Part shown: positions 13,114-21,659 of the stretch, piece after piece
Layout of the letters: the number at the start of each line of letters is the position of its first letter
Numbering within the stretch: position 1 is the stretch's first letter
IMG/VR virus record: IMGVR_UViG_3300043773_000810
Location: 1 to 28,609 of that record
Strand: one strand, 5' to 3'
Origin: a virus
Length of the DNA stretch: 28,609 nt
The notes under the pieces: generated by a model
Told to the model about the DNA's origin: nothing
Databases searched by the model: none
Seen by the model: only the letters and a program-made list of their open reading frames with translations
Program-made: the position numbers and the translations under genes

Positions 13114-13421
13114 AAAACTTGCATGAGAGCGTTGTAACGCTCTCTATGGTTCGACTCGTTCTCTCTACCTTTTTTACCGATACACTTTGCACCGGCAGGT
13201 GCCCCACAGCCCGGACAAGGAATAGTCCGGGCTTGAGTCTTTGTCATAAAAGGCAATTTTAGTTACCCCTTTATATAGAGGCAGCCGCTAGCGGCTGCCG
13301 ACCTACAATCCCGAACGATGAGTGAGGGACTGGTTTTCTTTTGGTCTAAAGCAGCCGGCGAAACCCGGCTGCTAACAGATAAACCACTAACTATGAGTAA
13401 GGCGGCAGACAACCTGCCGCC
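13081..13421. repeat. Array of six perfect inverted repeats
   Basis: Perfect stems at 13081-13097 (CGGCAGC/GCTGCCG), 13125-13144 (GAGAGCGTT/AACGCTCTC), 13209-13232 (GCCCGGAC/GTCCGGGC), 13280-13299 (20-bp palindrome GGCAGCCGCTAGCGGCTGCC), 13350-13373 (AGCAGCCGG/CCGGCTGCT) and 13401-13421 (GGCGGCAG/CTGCCGCC). The first three lie in coding sequence, the last three in the intergenic region. None has a U-tract. Several share a GGCAGC or GCAGCC core, so they may be related sites for a terminase or other DNA-binding protein near cos. Confidence 0.6.
13110..13247 (-). CDS. Zinc-ribbon microprotein
   Basis: 45 residues from ATG at 13247: MTKTQARTIPCPGCGAPAGA, KC, then a basic segment and NHRERYNALMQVF. 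The pattern CPxCxAPAGxxC followed by a distant H..R is a well-known actinophage zinc-finger family. The stop overlaps the HNH start. No clear Shine-Dalgarno is seen; TAAAAT ends eight bases before the ATG, so the transcript may be leaderless, though the -35 is poor. This is probably the first gene of the left arm. Confidence 0.7.
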   Translation of the reverse strand: MTKTQARTIPCPGCGAPAGAKCIGKKGRENESNHRERYNALMQVF

Positions 13422-13686
13422 CTAAAACCCTTCTTACAAAGGTCGGGGTGCGGTCGTCGGTCGGTCGCTTCGCTCCCTCCCTCCTCCCTTACCCCTCCCC
13501 AAAGAAATACGTGCAGAAAACACAAAAACATGGATAAAAGTGACAAGAATCACACTACCCAATGTAAAACCCCAGCAAAAGCACCCAACCAAACAGTTGA
13601 TCAACATTCCAACCCGTACCAAACCAGCCACCCGCATAACCCGGCGGTCATGCGCCGGCGGGTGGGATGCCGGCCCGTGGGGCCTA

Positions 13687-13829
13687 GGGGTTTCGACGGG
13701 GGTACCGAGTAGGCAGGGATGCCTTGTAATGGGCTCTAGATTCAACGCTGAGCGACGATTGTGCCGAGTGTGGGTGATTGTGCCCGGATAGTCGAAACCC
13801 CCGCATCGTAGAGCCGATGCGGGGGTTTC
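13687..13829 (+). ncRNA. Possible structured RNA ending at a terminator
   Basis: GGGGTTTCGAC (13687-13697) is a perfect 11-bp complement of GTCGAAACCCC (13791-13801), enclosing 93 nt with an AGGCA/TGCCT hairpin and two copies of GATTGTGCC (from about 13757 and 13776). The 3' arm overlaps the 5' arm of the terminator at 13794-13829, so the two folds exclude each other. I find no convincing promoter, so a transcript is not shown. Confidence 0.25.
13794..13829 (-). terminator. Terminator of the 13843 gene
   Basis: GAAACCCCCGCATCG pairs with CGATGCGGGGGTTTC, a 15-bp perfect stem with a six-base loop, 13 bases past the stop of the minus-strand gene. It belongs to the family of four GAAACCCCCG hairpins in this block and is symmetric enough to act in both directions. 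Confidence 0.85.
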
Positions 13830-13842
13830 CTAGTAGGGACGG

Positions 13843-14088
13843 TTAGCGAGAGACTCGGTAGCTTTCCTCGCCTACGGACAGCCACGCGTGTCCGTTACGC
13901 GGGGAGTACCAGACGCCTATCTGATTAGGTTTGTCGGAACAATCCTCAACGTCGCAGATGGGGATTAGTCCGTTCGCGTACGTGTCGTATCCGGTGAACT
14001 CACCGCGTAGGGCTGCGGCACCGGTAAGCGCGACGATAGCGCCTGCGGTAGCGGAAGTGAGGGCGATGGTAATTCGGTTGGTTGTCAT
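13843..14088 (-). CDS. Small secreted or membrane-anchored protein
   Basis: 81 residues from ATG at 14088 (MTTNRITIALTSATAGAIVALTGAAALRGEF...). Residues 5-30 are hydrophobic and Ala/Thr-rich after a short basic start, like a signal peptide or anchor. The remainder (FTGYDTYANGLIPICDVEDCSDKPNQIGVWYSPRNGHAWLSVGEESYRVSR) has a CDVEDC pair that may form a disulfide outside the cell. It has its own promoter, seven bases upstream of the ATG, and its own terminator. A candidate surface or superinfection-related protein; function unknown. Confidence 0.7.
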   Translation of the reverse strand: MTTNRITIALTSATAGAIVALTGAAALRGEFTGYDTYANGLIPICDVEDCSDKPNQIGVWYSPRNGHAWLSVGEESYRVSR

Positions 14089-14095
14089 GGATTGC

Positions 14096-14125
14096 ACGGT
14101 ACCGGTTTGGGTTGCACATTGTCGA
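14096..14125 (-). promoter_or_regulatory. Promoter/operator for the 13843 gene
   Basis: Minus strand: TCGACA, 18-bp spacer, TACCGT, then seven bases to the ATG (leaderless). The -35 region reads CTCGACAATGTGCAAC, a variant of the repeated operator sequence. Confidence 0.65.
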
Positions 14126-14140
14126 GTCCCCGGATATGAG

Positions 14141-14170
14141 GAAACCCCCGGATTGTGGTCCGGGGGTTTC
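14141..14170 (-). terminator. Terminator of the 14185 gene
   Basis: GAAACCCCCGGA pairs with TCCGGGGGTTTC, a 12-bp perfect stem with a six-base loop, 15 bases past the stop codon. Near-identical to the terminators at 14374 and 14862. Confidence 0.85.
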
Positions 14171-14184
14171 GGTAGGTTGTCGGT

Positions 14185-14322
14185 TTATTTGTCGAGATAT
14201 GCGGGACGAACGTAGTTGGCGATTATTTGTTCGTTCACTGCCTGAACGACGTGAGGGTGTGCGTAGTCGTGTCCGATGTTGGTGTGGCAGTAGCGGCATT
14301 GCGAGTGCGTGTTGTTTGTCAT
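14185..14322 (-). CDS. Cys/His-rich microprotein
   Basis: 45 residues: MTNNTHSQCRYCHTNIGHDY, AHPHVVQAVNEQIIANYVRPAYLDK. CRYC followed by closely spaced His residues (H13, H18, H22, H24) suggests a small zinc-binding fold. It is flanked exactly by its own promoter (six bases upstream of the ATG) and its own terminator, which strongly supports a real gene despite its size. Function unknown; small zinc proteins in phages often bind host proteins. Confidence 0.7.
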   Translation of the reverse strand: MTNNTHSQCRYCHTNIGHDYAHPHVVQAVNEQIIANYVRPAYLDK

Positions 14323-14328
14323 GCGGCT

Positions 14329-14358
14329 AGCGTAACCCACAGTGACTCACACTGTCAA
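14329..14358 (-). promoter_or_regulatory. Promoter/operator for the 14185 gene
   Basis: Minus strand: TTGACA, 18-bp spacer, TACGCT, six bases to ATG (leaderless). The operator-like copy reads CTTGACAGTGTGAGT. Confidence 0.75.
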
Positions 14359-14373
14359 GTCGCCGGAAACGAC

Positions 14374-14404
14374 GAAACCCCCGGACGGTTTGCCCGGGGG
14401 TTTC
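14374..14404 (-). terminator. Terminator of the 14419 gene
   Basis: GAAACCCCCGG pairs with CCGGGGGTTTC, 11-bp stem with a nine-base loop, 14 bases past the stop. Confidence 0.85.
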
Positions 14405-14418
14405 GGTTCGGTAGTGGG

Positions 14419-14820
14419 TTAGACGTTAGCGGTTTCGCGTTGTGCTTCGAGTGCGCAGTCTGCTGATTCTTCTGCGATATCGGCTAGCCAAGCTAAGCCC
14501 AAAGCGCGGTCGTCGGCAATGCTGCCCGATGCCATAGCACTAGCTTGCCCTACTTGCTTGCGGATAGCGTCGGCGTGAGGTTCGTATCCGTGTGACTCTA
14601 TCTCTGCTGCTGCCTTAAGCGCGATCACGCCGTGATAGTTCGGCACCGTGTGGTAGTAGCCGATAACCGTGTTGTCGGCTGTGACGATGGTACCGCCGAA
14701 ATTGGCGTAGCCCTTACCGCTGTAGCGTGCAACACGGTTAAACAGCTCGTGTGCTTCGCTGTAGTCGCGAACGACAATAACGGTGGGTTGTCCGATGATG
14801 CTGCAAACGTTGTGTGTCAT
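14419..14820 (-). CDS. Unknown accessory protein
   Basis: 133 residues from ATG at 14820 (MTHNVCSIIGQPTVIVVRDYSEAHELFNRVARYSGKGYANFGGTIVTADNTVIGYYHTVPNYHGVIALKAAAEIESHG...). A beta-alpha N-terminal half (PTVIVVRDYSEAHELFNRVA) is followed by a helical, Ala-rich C-terminal half with DDRALGLAWLADIAEESADCALEAQRE. No TM segment or known motif. It is a single-gene unit with promoter and terminator. I do not recognise the family. Confidence 0.8.
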   Translation of the reverse strand: MTHNVCSIIGQPTVIVVRDYSEAHELFNRVARYSGKGYANFGGTIVTADNTVIGYYHTVPNYHGVIALKAAAEIESHGYEPHADAIRKQVGQASAMASGSIADDRALGLAWLADIAEESADCALEAQRETANV

Positions 14821-14826
14821 GCCGCT

Positions 14827-14856
14827 AGCCTAACCGGTAAGCGTGCCCATTGTCAA
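14827..14856 (-). promoter_or_regulatory. Promoter/operator for the 14419 gene
   Basis: Minus strand: TTGACA, 18-bp spacer, TAGGCT, six bases to ATG (leaderless). The operator-like copy reads CTTGACAATGGGCAC. Confidence 0.75.
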
Positions 14857-14861
14857 GCGAA

Positions 14862-14891
14862 GAAACCCCCGGACGGTTGCCCGGGGGTTTC
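14862..14891 (-). terminator. Terminator of the 15134-14906 pair
   Basis: GAAACCCCCGG pairs with CCGGGGGTTTC, 11-bp stem with an eight-base loop, 14 bases past the stop of the 14906 gene. Almost the same sequence as the 14374 terminator, so the two copies are likely duplicates. Confidence 0.85.
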
Positions 14892-14905
14892 GGTTCGGTA
14901 GACGG

Positions 14906-15130
14906 CTAGCGGGTACGGTCGTATGCTGCCCGGTTGGCGGCTAACCGGGCAGCTTTAGCGCGTAATAGTTGCGCTTTATTTTCGATTGACTCGGCATGTT
15001 CTAACAACCGTGGGACACGGTTCCGGAACACGTCACTGTCATCGGCCCGCATAGCCATCCTTAACACTTGCTCAAACCTAGCTTCTAACTCTGCTAGTTC
15101 GGCCCGTTCATCGGGGGTTAGATAGTTCAT
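14906..15130 (-). CDS. Small helical protein
   Basis: 74 residues: MNYLTPDERAELAELEARFE, then QVLRMAMRADDSDVFRNRVPRLLEHAESIENKAQLLRAKAARLAANRAAYDRTR. It is almost entirely charged alpha helix and could form a coiled-coil or helical hairpin. Three bases separate it from the stop of the upstream gene, so it is second in a two-gene unit. No known family. Confidence 0.75.
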   Translation of the reverse strand: MNYLTPDERAELAELEARFEQVLRMAMRADDSDVFRNRVPRLLEHAESIENKAQLLRAKAARLAANRAAYDRTR

Positions 15131-15133
15131 TGT

Positions 15134-15430
15134 TTACTCATCTTCCGTAGTGACGATGCGAACCGAGCCGATGACGTGCCCGCCGCATCGGGTGGAACCG
15201 TGCGAACGACGCCTAGCGGTCACGTAGCTGATATCCGGTAGCCCGATATGCGGAGTGCAGTAGCCGAGAATGTCGGTACCGTCGATATCGGAATCGTTGT
15301 ATCCGTACTCGGCAGCTAGTTCGGCAACGTAGTCGAGCACGTCATCAGCGTTAGCGAACGCGTATGACGTGATATCGCCGTCCGGTTCGGTGGGAGTGAC
15401 TCGGTAGTAGGCGGTGAGTGTGTTTGTCAT
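15134..15430 (-). CDS. Unknown accessory protein, first gene of a pair
   Basis: 98 residues from ATG at 15430 (MTNTLTAYYRVTPTEPDGDITSYAFANADDVLDYVAELAAEYGYNDSDIDGTDILGYCTPHIGLPDISYVTARRRSHGSTRCGGHVIGSVRIVTTEDE). The start is fixed by the promoter -10 seven bases upstream; the frame is open further but that would run through the promoter. The N-terminal half looks like an alpha/beta domain and the C-terminal half has a CGGH. Function unknown. It begins MTN like the 14185 protein, with a similar leaderless context. Confidence 0.75.
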   Translation of the reverse strand: MTNTLTAYYRVTPTEPDGDITSYAFANADDVLDYVAELAAEYGYNDSDIDGTDILGYCTPHIGLPDISYVTARRRSHGSTRCGGHVIGSVRIVTTEDE

Positions 15431-15437
15431 GGCGGCT

Positions 15438-15466
15438 AGGCTAGTTTGGGCGCCACACATTGTCAA
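15438..15466 (-). promoter_or_regulatory. Promoter/operator for the 15134 gene
   Basis: Minus strand: TTGACA, 17-bp spacer, TAGCCT, seven bases to ATG (leaderless). The operator-like copy reads TTTGACAATGTGTGG. It diverges from the plus-strand promoter at 15512. Confidence 0.75.
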
Positions 15467-15511
15467 ACCCGCAGGTAGGAGCCTCGCCGGCGCGGTACGG
15501 TAAATAAAAAA

Positions 15512-15540
15512 TTGACTCCCTGGACCGTAGGCTTTACTAT
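15512..15540 (+). promoter_or_regulatory. Early rightward promoter
   Basis: TTGACT, 17-bp spacer, TACTAT, the closest match to consensus in the window. It is preceded by an A/T run (TAAATAAAAAA) and lies 41 bases before the first right-arm gene, so it is the likely counterpart of the L5 early promoter. It lacks the full operator motif (TTGACTCCC rather than TTGACAATG). Confidence 0.75.
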
Positions 15541-15581
15541 GTGCACCGTACGAACCAACCAACGACGTTAGGACAAGATCA

Positions 15582-15788
15582 ATGTTTGTGCCCGGTACAC
15601 GTGTCTACGACCGAGTGACAGCCGAAACCTACGGCACTAGGTACTACGGCACGGTTGTAGCTGTGCAACAGCCGTCACGGTTTGCGCCTATGGTGGAGTC
15701 GGTAACGGTTGAATGGGATTGCGACGGTTGGACCGACTACCGTCCGACTGATGACGTCTATACTGACGTGCTCGGTATCGTGGCTTGA
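15582..15788 (+). CDS. Small beta-rich protein, first right-arm gene
   Basis: 68 residues (MFVPGTRVYDRVTAETYGTRYYGTVVAVQQ...). The opening 'PGTRVYDRV...YGTVV' and later 'VTVEWDCDGWTDYRPTDDV' resemble small SH3-like barrel proteins that begin with 'GTRV' and use short strands. AGGA precedes the ATG by about nine bases. The stop codon TGA is part of the next promoter's TTGACA. Function unknown. Confidence 0.75.
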   Translation: MFVPGTRVYDRVTAETYGTRYYGTVVAVQQPSRFAPMVESVTVEWDCDGWTDYRPTDDVYTDVLGIVA

Positions 15789-15814
15789 CAGTGTGTAGTC
15801 GTTGTCCGTATCCT
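15784..15814 (+). promoter_or_regulatory. Promoter/operator for the 15852 gene
   Basis: CTTGACAGTGTGTAG contains TTGACA (15785-15790); TATCCT lies 18 bp downstream (15809-15814). The stop TGA of the upstream gene is inside the -35. Leader of about 30 nt with TAGGAG. Confidence 0.75.
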
Positions 15815-15851: not shown

Positions 15852-16049
15852 ATGTTTAAGTCGTTGGCGCGTATCGAAGTAACTGCCACTAATGGCAACG
15901 TCGTTAGGTTGGACGTTAGCCCGGATGGTGACGTTAAGGTTGCTGCCCGTAAGGGTACGCATAATCAGTCGGTGTCGGTTATCCCTGCGGATAACCCGCT
16001 AGCGTCGTTGCTTGCGTCGTTCATCATGGATAACTCGCAGACGGACTAG
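15852..16049 (+). CDS. Small protein of unknown function
   Basis: 65 residues (MFKSLARIEVTATNGNVVRLDVSPDGDVKVAARKGTHNQSVSVIPADNPLASLLASFIMDNSQTD). Alternating hydrophobic residues suggest a small beta sheet followed by a C-terminal helix. TAGGAG lies eight bases upstream of the ATG. The TAG stop is embedded in the following operator-like site (CTAGACATTG). Confidence 0.75.
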   Translation: MFKSLARIEVTATNGNVVRLDVSPDGDVKVAARKGTHNQSVSVIPADNPLASLLASFIMDNSQTD

Positions 16050-17948: not shown

Positions 17949-18185
17949 ATGGTTACGGTTAAAGGTTTGAAGCGGTTTAACGGTATCGCGGGACAATACG
18001 GTTACCGGGCTACGGTGCAGTATGCCGGCGAACCGGATAGCGTGGTTTCGTTCATCGGTAGCGTTTACGGTGGCCCGGTTGTCATGGTTACAGATACTGG
18101 TATGCAGACGTTTGTTACAGAACCGGATAGGTTTGGTTCGTTTGGCCCGGATTGGGTTAGACGGTTTTTCGGTGATCTGGCTTGA
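17949..18185 (+). CDS. Small beta-rich protein
   Basis: 78 residues from ATG at 17949, preceded by GGGAGG (an upstream in-frame start at 17895 lacks a ribosome site). MVTVKGLKRFNGIAGQYGYRATVQYAGEPDSVVSFIGSVYGGPVVMVTDTGMQTFVTEPDRFGSFGPDWVRRFFGDLA. It appears to be a small barrel followed by a short helix. The final 'GPDWVRRFFGDLA' is amphipathic. The stop TGA is part of the next promoter. Function unknown. Confidence 0.75.
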   Translation: MVTVKGLKRFNGIAGQYGYRATVQYAGEPDSVVSFIGSVYGGPVVMVTDTGMQTFVTEPDRFGSFGPDWVRRFFGDLA

Positions 18186-18210
18186 CAATGGGTAGTGTTT
18201 CGCGTATCAT
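18181..18210 (+). promoter_or_regulatory. Promoter/operator for the nine-gene cluster
   Basis: CTTGACAATGGGTAG with TTGACA (18182-18187), 17-bp spacer, TATCAT (18205-18210). It lies 42 bases before the first of a run of tiny genes that share stop/Shine-Dalgarno modules, so it probably drives them all. Confidence 0.8.
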
Positions 18211-19995: not shown

Positions 19996-20025
19996 TTGAC
20001 ATAACAATGACAAGCCGTGTATCAT
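19996..20025 (+). promoter_or_regulatory. Repressor gene promoter
   Basis: TTGACA (19996-20001), 18-bp spacer, TATCAT (20020-20025), 44 bases before the repressor ATG. The bases after the -35 (TAACAATGA) depart from the operator consensus (ATGnGTAG), so this promoter may escape repression by the protein it makes. Confidence 0.75.
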
Positions 20026-20069: not shown

Positions 20070-20567
20070 ATGATGGAACAGACACCTGAGTTATCACTAG
20101 CTCTAATAGAAGCCTTGAAGAACCAAGGATACACACAATCAGAGATTGCACGCATGTTCGGCAAGACACGACAAGCTGTCTCGTGGCACAAGCGCACCTA
20201 CGGTGGAAGTCTCACGCCTCGTGAGGAAGCTTTGAAACACTATCCGTGGCAGGTTTCCCACCCGCAAACCCAAACGACCGCCTACAGGGCATCTAGGGAC
20301 CACTGCGAGTACATGGCTACCGGCGGCAAAGGCATGACAGTCCGAGAACTAGGCCGGCTGCGGAACTTCTACCGCAAGATTCAAGAAGGTTTCGTGTTGG
20401 AACATGACCCGAACATTCCCCCGGAGCCGGGGGTCAACAAGTACGGAGGTTTCGCTTGGCGTAAACGCCGGAAGTCCGATGGAGACTTGATAATCCGGGT
20501 GAACCAGTACACGACGTTGACCGATGAGGGCCGCATGTTGTGGAGGCTGCCGCCCGATTTACCTTAA
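20070..20567 (+). CDS. Immunity repressor (L5 gp71 family)
   Basis: 165 residues. The N-terminal helix-turn-helix is YTQSEIARMFGKTRQAVSWHKRTYGG (residues 21-46). The C-terminal domain has the family signature: 'RDHCEYMATGGKGM' then 'LRNFYRKIQEGFVLEHDPNIPPEPGV..YGGFAWRKR' and 'DGDLIIRVNQYTTLTDEGRMLWRLPPD'. I recognise this as the cluster A immunity repressor family. Members bind one early operator and many scattered asymmetric 'stoperator' sites that halt transcription. It is monocistronic with its own promoter. The operator-like sites across this window are the probable targets. Confidence 0.93.
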   Translation: MMEQTPELSLALIEALKNQGYTQSEIARMFGKTRQAVSWHKRTYGGSLTPREEALKHYPWQVSHPQTQTTAYRASRDHCEYMATGGKGMTVRELGRLRNFYRKIQEGFVLEHDPNIPPEPGVNKYGGFAWRKRRKSDGDLIIRVNQYTTLTDEGRMLWRLPPDLP

Positions 20568-20873: not shown

Positions 20874-21659
20874 TTGACGGAGCCGCAACACAGGTCAGTC
20901 TCGCAACTCAAACTGTACGAACGCTGCCCACACGCCTGGTACCTCACCAAGATTGAGAAGGTTTGGCAGCGCCCAGCAGCATGGCTCGCGCAAGGCTCCG
21001 CAGTGCATGAGGCGGCGGAAGCCTACGAACGGTCAGGCCGAACCCTCACCCTTGAGGAAACCCAAGACGTGTTCAGGGATTCGTACTGCCGGCACATCGA
21101 CCAAGCTTGCGAGGGCGCACCGAACTTCGACTTCTGGTTCGCTTCCGGCCCTTACGGCGGCGAACTGGACATTGAGCGGCGATACCACATAGGTTTGGAG
21201 CAGTGCGAAAGATACATCCGATGGTATGAGAATCACCCACAGGAGGTCATCTGGATTGCCCCTGACGGTACACCCGGCATCGAACTAGGTTTCGACATTG
21301 ATCTGGATGGTGTGCTGGTGCGAGGTTTCATCGACGCCGTGATCGACACAGGGGAAGGTTTGATCGTCCGAGACAACAAAACCGGCAACAGCCCCGGCGA
21401 CGACTTCCAACTCGGCGTGTACGGTGTAGCACTCGCTGAAAGCTTTGACATTGTGCCCCCAACCGTGGGTGACTACTGGATGGGCAAGAGCGGGAAACCC
21501 ACTGTGCCATACCGGATCGGTGAGTGGACGAGGGGGAGGGTCAGGGAAGCATTTCTGAGGCTTGAGGAAAACATTCAGGCGGGAAGGTTTGAACCCGATC
21601 CCGAGCCGTCGAAGTGTAGGTTCTGCGACGTGTCATGGGCCTGTTCTTACTACACCTGA
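20874..21659 (+). CDS. Cas4/RecB-like PD-(D/E)XK exonuclease
   Basis: 261 residues from TTG at 20874 (AGAAAGG six bases upstream). SVSQLKLYERCP (Cys18), GSAVHEAAE (His45), GFIDAVID (Asp154), VRDNKTG (Asp167, Lys169), QLGVY (Q179-Y183 motif) and a C-terminal CRFCDVSWAC (Cys248, 251, 257) that with Cys18 would form an iron-sulfur cluster. All key residues of the Cas4-type nuclease are present. L5-type phages encode it for DNA recombination/replication; there is no CRISPR here. An operator-like sequence lies inside at 21444. Confidence 0.93.
   Translation: MTEPQHRSVSQLKLYERCPHAWYLTKIEKVWQRPAAWLAQGSAVHEAAEAYERSGRTLTLEETQDVFRDSYCRHIDQACEGAPNFDFWFASGPYGGELDIERRYHIGLEQCERYIRWYENHPQEVIWIAPDGTPGIELGFDIDLDGVLVRGFIDAVIDTGEGLIVRDNKTGNSPGDDFQLGVYGVALAESFDIVPPTVGDYWMGKSGKPTVPYRIGEWTRGRVREAFLRLEENIQAGRFEPDPEPSKCRFCDVSWACSYYT
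21444..21458 (+). promoter_or_regulatory. Intragenic operator-like site
   Basis: TTTGACATTGTGCCC inside the nuclease gene, in the same orientation as the others, and close to the 18685 copy in sequence. Encodes Phe-Asp-Ile-Val-Pro, so chance is possible. Confidence 0.35.

Follow-up and report, generated by a model that had tools for sequence, protein, structure and literature searches.

How are genes controlled that lie between the end of a phage genome and its early promoters and point away from the early right arm? This question is raised by a 28,609-base virus record, analyzed here over its full length (the window), for which four repressor-controlled leaderless promoters had been predicted on the minus strand. 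The DNA matches the terminase and the DnaB-like helicase of Cluster A mycobacteriophages at approximately 70–73%, and from its sequence the window is assigned to a temperate, Cluster A-type actinophage. Left-arm genes occupy the minus strand below about 13.4 kb and right-arm genes the plus strand above 15.5 kb, and the window spans the junction between them. Between the left-arm genes and the right end, positions 13600–13700 resemble sequence in three related loci (L116, L122, and L124), and this segment is therefore read as the probable joined genome end (cos) region. No match to the DNA of 13580–15600 was found among known phages.

The window contains a homolog of the L5-type immunity repressor, encoded by a 165-aa gene at 20070–20567 on the plus strand and related to the solved repressor 7R6R (E = 2.8e-38). 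A tblastn search with this ORF matched 1,082 phage records, the best identity among the matches listed being 62% (Noelle). According to our reading of the alignment, R45, Q46, and R108, described in passages of PMC9283540, appear to correspond to R34, Q35, and R96 here. These three residues are invariant across a five-sequence repressor alignment, and K81 is not conserved. A strong promoter match at 19996–20025 (TTGACA, 18 bp, TATCAT) precedes the repressor gene and is absent from the high-scoring operator sites; it is a candidate promoter for this gene.

Four minus-strand units near the probable genome end

Four minus-strand promoters, three with TTGACA and one with TCGACA, lie in the interval from the probable genome end to the early promoter region. 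In unit 1 (15467–15134), TTGACA at 15466–15461 is followed after 17 bp by TAGCCT (15443–15438) and, 7 nt further, by the ATG at 15430, which opens a 98-aa ORF (15430–15134). A second gene of 74 aa (15130–14906) starts 3 nt past the stop of the first; no promoter or Shine-Dalgarno sequence was seen for it, and it is probably translationally coupled to the first gene. In unit 2 (14857–14419), TTGACA at 14856–14851, an 18 bp spacer, TAGGCT at 14832–14827, and 6 nt lead to the ATG at 14820 of a 133-aa ORF. Unit 3 (14359–14185) has the same spacings, with TTGACA at 14358–14353, TACGCT at 14334–14329, and the ATG of a 45-aa ORF at 14322. Unit 4 (14126–13843) combines TCGACA at 14125–14120, 18 bp, TACCGT at 14101–14096, and 7 nt with the ATG at 14088 of an 81-aa ORF belonging to the PHROG 3718 family.

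Each unit ends in a hairpin that is probably a terminator, a feature that had escaped the first reading of the sequence. These hairpins lie at 14862–14891 (−28.3 kcal/mol, z −4.9), 14373–14405 (−29.3 kcal/mol, z −4.9), 14141–14170 (−23.5 kcal/mol, z −5.9), and 13794–13829 (−32.1 kcal/mol, z −5.9) after units 1 to 4, respectively. The proposal that each gene is a self-contained unit is thus supported by a promoter and a hairpin in every unit, but not in the sense of one gene each, as unit 1 contains two. The stretch separating the probable genome end from the unit 4 terminator contains a perfect 11-bp stem (13687–13697 with 13791–13801) around 93 nt; neither ARAGORN nor Rfam made a call at 13687–13801.

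The promoter arrangement was evaluated with a composite pattern consisting of a −35 with at most one mismatch, 17–18 bp, TANNNT, 6–7 nt, and ATG. It occurs four times in 13400–15600, whereas 2,000 dinucleotide-shuffled versions of this region contain it 0.0075 times on average and at most once; 150 shuffles of the whole window gave a mean of 0.133 and a maximum of 2. A similar scan, demanding an ORF of at least 30 codons, returned four matches in 83 repressor-homology loci (1,238,553 bp), with at most one per locus. All four predicted promoters are present as described, and the composite is far above the level of the shuffled sequences. A sigma-70 scan, which needs at least a 4/6 match to TATAAT, missed all the minus-strand promoters.

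The ATG follows the −10 element by 6–7 nt at all four promoters, in agreement with the original prediction that the mRNAs should be leaderless. TANNNT at this distance from the start codon, combined with the lack of a Shine-Dalgarno sequence, is the arrangement of leaderless SigA promoters. Shine-Dalgarno-like tetramers precede none of the five minus-strand starts versus 8 of the 12 plus-strand start positions listed, some of which are approximate. In M. smegmatis, whose pattern may not be that of the host, passages of PMC6448022 give about one quarter of transcripts as leaderless and TANNNT as the preferred −10 element.

All four leaderless proteins begin with Met-Thr, as had been pointed out. 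In the fetched loci, ATGAC occurs at 17 of 66 leaderless-type starts versus 157 of 971 Shine-Dalgarno-type starts (Fisher p = 0.059), after 92 matches fitting the retrieval patterns were taken out. At this base rate of 16–26%, Met-Thr was dropped as a special signal and constitutes weak evidence; its sharing could be explained by common cassette ancestry.

Repressor-type sites and proposed control of the units

An operator matrix was trained on nine plus-strand repressor-type sites only, with the four minus-strand sites held out. The held-out sites rank 6, 7, 12, and 14 of 57,192 positions, and down to rank 14 the remainder are training sites, except for a plus-strand site at 21444 (rank 13). 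With the TTGACA hexamer excluded, they rank 3, 11, 12, and 18 of 291 TTGACA-like positions. Shuffled windows contain a mean of 0.21 and a maximum of 2 sites scoring at least 15.5 (200 shuffles). The claim that each −35 element lies within the repeated operator sequence is thus confirmed, since the matrix trained on one strand recovers all four sites on the other. The minus-strand 13-mers are located at 15467–15455, 14857–14845, 14359–14347, and 14126–14114 in units 1 to 4; the last carries a C at a position that is T or A in all nine training sites.

The nine training sites and the four minus-strand sites are 13-bp asymmetric sequences sharing the TGTCAAG core. They are oriented with transcription, on the minus strand in the minus-strand units and on the plus strand in the right arm, with the flip at approximately 15.5 kb. 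A candidate divergent early promoter (TTGACT, 17 bp, TACTAT) lies at 15512–15540 on the plus strand, with a weak operator-like match (score 11.5) overlapping its −10 element at 15532. Two plus-strand operator-promoters have leaders, at 15784–15814 (TTGACA, 18 bp, TATCCT; a Shine-Dalgarno sequence precedes the ATG at 15852) and 18181–18210 (TTGACA, 17 bp, TATCAT).

Additional sites were observed elsewhere in the window. A minus-strand repressor-type site at 2967 (CTTGACTATGTG, score 15.6) is positioned inside a left-arm ORF and may be a chance match or a left-arm stoperator. The plus-strand sites at 16046, 16842, 17190, 21660, 23535, and 24189 overlap the stop codon of the preceding gene, TAG or TGA inside CTAGACA or TTTGACA/CTTGACA; therefore, the site variant may track the stop codon used.

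Taken together, passages of PMC6550527, PMC9283540, PMC5712189, PMC3029335, PMC4351075, PMC6448022, and PMC4626039 establish the repressor, its asymmetric, oriented sites, and the frequent occurrence of leaderless mRNA in mycobacteria. The window shares with the Cluster A repressor/stoperator system (L5 gp71, Bxb1 gp69, and the TipsytheTRex repressor) a homologous repressor, many asymmetric, transcription-oriented sites with the L5 core TGTCAAG (reverse complement CTTGACA), and an operator over the −35 of an early promoter. It differs in the extension of the site, which is ATGNG (CTTGACAATGTG), and in having four opposite-strand sites in leaderless units. The arrangement is a variant of the known Cluster A control system and not a new kind of system.

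We consider it likely that the four units form a counter-directional row of leaderless cassettes that are gated by the repressor and blocked by it in the lysogen. Each of these units, which are directed away from the early right arm and proposed to be early, has a 13-bp asymmetric repressor-type site whose TTGACA supplies the −35, a TANNNT −10, an ATG at or next to the expected RNA start, a probable hairpin terminator, and between these either one small gene or two. In the lysogen, the repressor would cover the −35 and block initiation at every unit. Upon infection or induction, when the repressor is absent, the host SigA polymerase would fire all four units at once, and ribosomes would start on the leaderless AUG. 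The hairpins would stop the RNAs before they reach the genome end and the late left-arm genes on the same strand. The arrangement suggests that, in this phage group, repressor sites can be attached to individual genes to give complete on/off cassettes, and early genes of unknown function under such control would be good candidates for host takeover or counter-defence.

Morons are autonomous phage cargo genes with their own promoter and terminator, and they are typically expressed from the prophage. At the sequence level, each unit in the window likewise has its own promoter and probable terminator; the units are compact and vary between relatives in one slot. They differ from morons in being predicted, from the operator overlap, to be silenced by the phage repressor. 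The possibility that they are ordinary morons, also expressed in the lysogen, whose sites merely resemble strong −35 elements to which the repressor does not bind, draws on the presence of TTGACA in both the operator and the promoter motifs and on leaderless composites without a visible operator in other phages, such as the phage contig L029. We regard it as unlikely, however, because the minus-strand sites match the plus-strand motif outside the hexamer too. Moreover, most of the nine training sites have no −10 at 17–18 bp, so that the shared extension is not a promoter feature. Nothing of use came from a literature search on morons with leaderless promoters.

The promoters might instead produce short regulatory RNAs, similar to the abundant small RNAs of the L5 early promoter, and not proteins. 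The units are short and terminated, most of their ORFs have no relatives, and small non-coding RNAs arise from that genome end according to passages of PMC5712189. Against this, an ATG is located at the predicted RNA start in all four units, and codon log-odds rank the annotated frame best of six in five of five genes, with a slightly negative value for unit 3. The unit 4 protein, furthermore, has protein-level relatives in 277 phage records; those listed (e.g., in Steamy, Odin, and Trixie) are on the minus strand in the right part of Cluster A genomes, where they sit among leftward early genes. Production of regulatory RNAs alone is accordingly judged quite improbable. For the minus-strand proteins other than that of unit 4, no credible family match was obtained, tblastn against known phages gave no match for the 98-aa unit 1 protein or the unit 2 protein, and no homologs of the latter were found among viral contigs. 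Single-sequence structure models are poor for both of these proteins (mean pLDDT 43.7 and 41.6). A weak match of the second unit 1 gene to LmuB (E = 7.5e-4) was judged to be noise from a helical stretch, and suggested functions of the small proteins were abandoned for too little support.

Repressor-gated initiation is also preferred over the very improbable reading that the sites serve chiefly to block elongation (classical stoperators) of a transcript from upstream of unit 1, with incidental −10 elements: most Cluster A sites do lie away from promoters (passages of PMC6550527), but the strong hairpins before units 2–4 should stop a long transcript first, and all four minus-strand sites have a −10 and an ATG in register, far above chance.

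Operator-promoters in related loci

The related loci comprise 83 repressor-homology loci and four annotated right arms (87 in total), of which 58 were used; the other 29 were left out, their own site motifs having fewer than six supporting copies. Only sites with at most one mismatch were retained, and those sharing an identical 45-nt sequence entered the count once; related genomes are non-independent. Among the 590 distinct sites in the 58 loci, 89 are followed by TANNNT after 17 bp and 25 after 18 bp (114 in total), compared with 0–8 sites at each other spacing from 8 to 34. This sharp peak indicates that operator-promoters are common in the relatives, where several per genome are usual: the median is 3 per locus, and of the 58 loci, 31 contain three or more and 28 contain four or more. 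The contrast drawn earlier with L5, in which only the early promoter was said to overlap an operator, is thereby weakened and was overdrawn. According to passages of PMC6550527, some Cluster A sites serve as operators within promoters, but the majority do not. With about one fifth of the distinct sites in the 58 loci carrying a −10 at 17–18 bp, this spacing offers a simple sequence test that separates operators from pure stoperators.

The unusual features of the window are the leaderless layout and the opposite direction. Only three of the 114 operator-promoters of the relatives are leaderless (in L102, L138, and L113), and those in L102 and L138 look like the same gene. Eight of the 590 sites are anti-oriented, and none of these is a promoter. 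The window has four sites that combine the leaderless layout with the reversed direction. Close to the early promoter, anti-oriented sites are also present in L112, L122, and the L176 group. In L176 (3140–3182; also L177, L179, and L184), plus- and minus-oriented sites face each other 42 bp apart and flank a promoter with a leaderless-type ATG (16 bp, TAGAGT, 6 nt); no such inverted pair was seen in the window.

Arturo and Puppy contain four operator-promoters in tandem near the right end, in which the TTGACA of the site likewise forms the −35 and TANNNT follows at 17–18 bp. Their tandem points into the right arm and has no start codon 6–7 nt downstream, whereas the promoters in the window have the opposite direction and each faces its own gene directly. 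At that genome end, Belenaria has a rightward gene, gp71, which was dropped as a parallel, as no TTGACA site was seen on its strand before the gene. Published passages on the Cluster O leaderless SigA promoters (Corndog PL1 and PR2) describe no overlap with a repressor site, unlike the arrangement in the window.

The slot at the probable genome end and leaderless promoters elsewhere

The distance from the genome end to the first plus-strand site is a few hundred bases in complete relatives, which leaves little room, and in the window the same slot holds approximately 1.6 kb of counter-directional genes. The L116 slot contains one 120-residue Met-Thr gene with a hairpin of −28.5 kcal/mol, and tblastn found no match between this gene and any unit of the window. 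A one-mismatch anti-oriented site at 1432 of L116 is not at promoter spacing, with 27 bp (counted by hand) separating it from CATCAT, a possible −10; therefore, L116 supports the slot more than the exact mechanism. Reading the slot by eye in L122 and L124 revealed no comparable gene.

The units resemble cargo that has accumulated at a single position. We tentatively propose, as a possibility short of an expectation, that this slot is an accretion site for portable control cassettes and that counter-directional immediate-early genes form an unrecognised layer of the Cluster A lytic switch. Terminator, repressor-type site, promoter, and leaderless start together occupy about 80 bp. If the proposal is true, any small ORF landing behind such a cassette would immediately be silent in lysogens, switched on at the very start of infection, independent of a ribosome-binding site for its translation, and shielded from the late operon.

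Leaderless promoters were also surveyed beyond the Cluster A relatives. In L029, a 74.7-kb phage contig fetched for its ATGAC pattern, one strand carries 12 leaderless-type promoters within 12.3 kb; the leaderless array as such is therefore not unique to the window, but the operator overlap and the Cluster A location are. The promoters at L029:2861–9680 are mostly TTGACA-17-TANNNT-6-ATG, with no shared extension after TTGACA and no visible operator. A collection scan for the operator with ATGAC gave 95 stretches, all single leaderless-type promoters in scattered phages, two of them in L029, and two module scans gave 10 and 62 stretches, each with a single match. Among the fetched loci, no other array sharing an operator was found. 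A full-text search for stoperators together with leaderless transcripts returned only PMC4351075, whose passages do not join the two, and this search, covering few subscription journals, located no published leaderless operator-promoter array.

In 121 genomes, the family of the Mycolicibacterium rhodesiae genome holding L106, the exact leaderless consensus has 94 matches in 59 genomes versus 14 for the reversed control, counted by hand from rows, and is therefore rare in likely hosts. Many of these host matches carry a second element, GTCAAC-N-TAA-NN-TGAC, just before the ATG, and may belong to a host regulon whose own repressor site overlies leaderless promoters.
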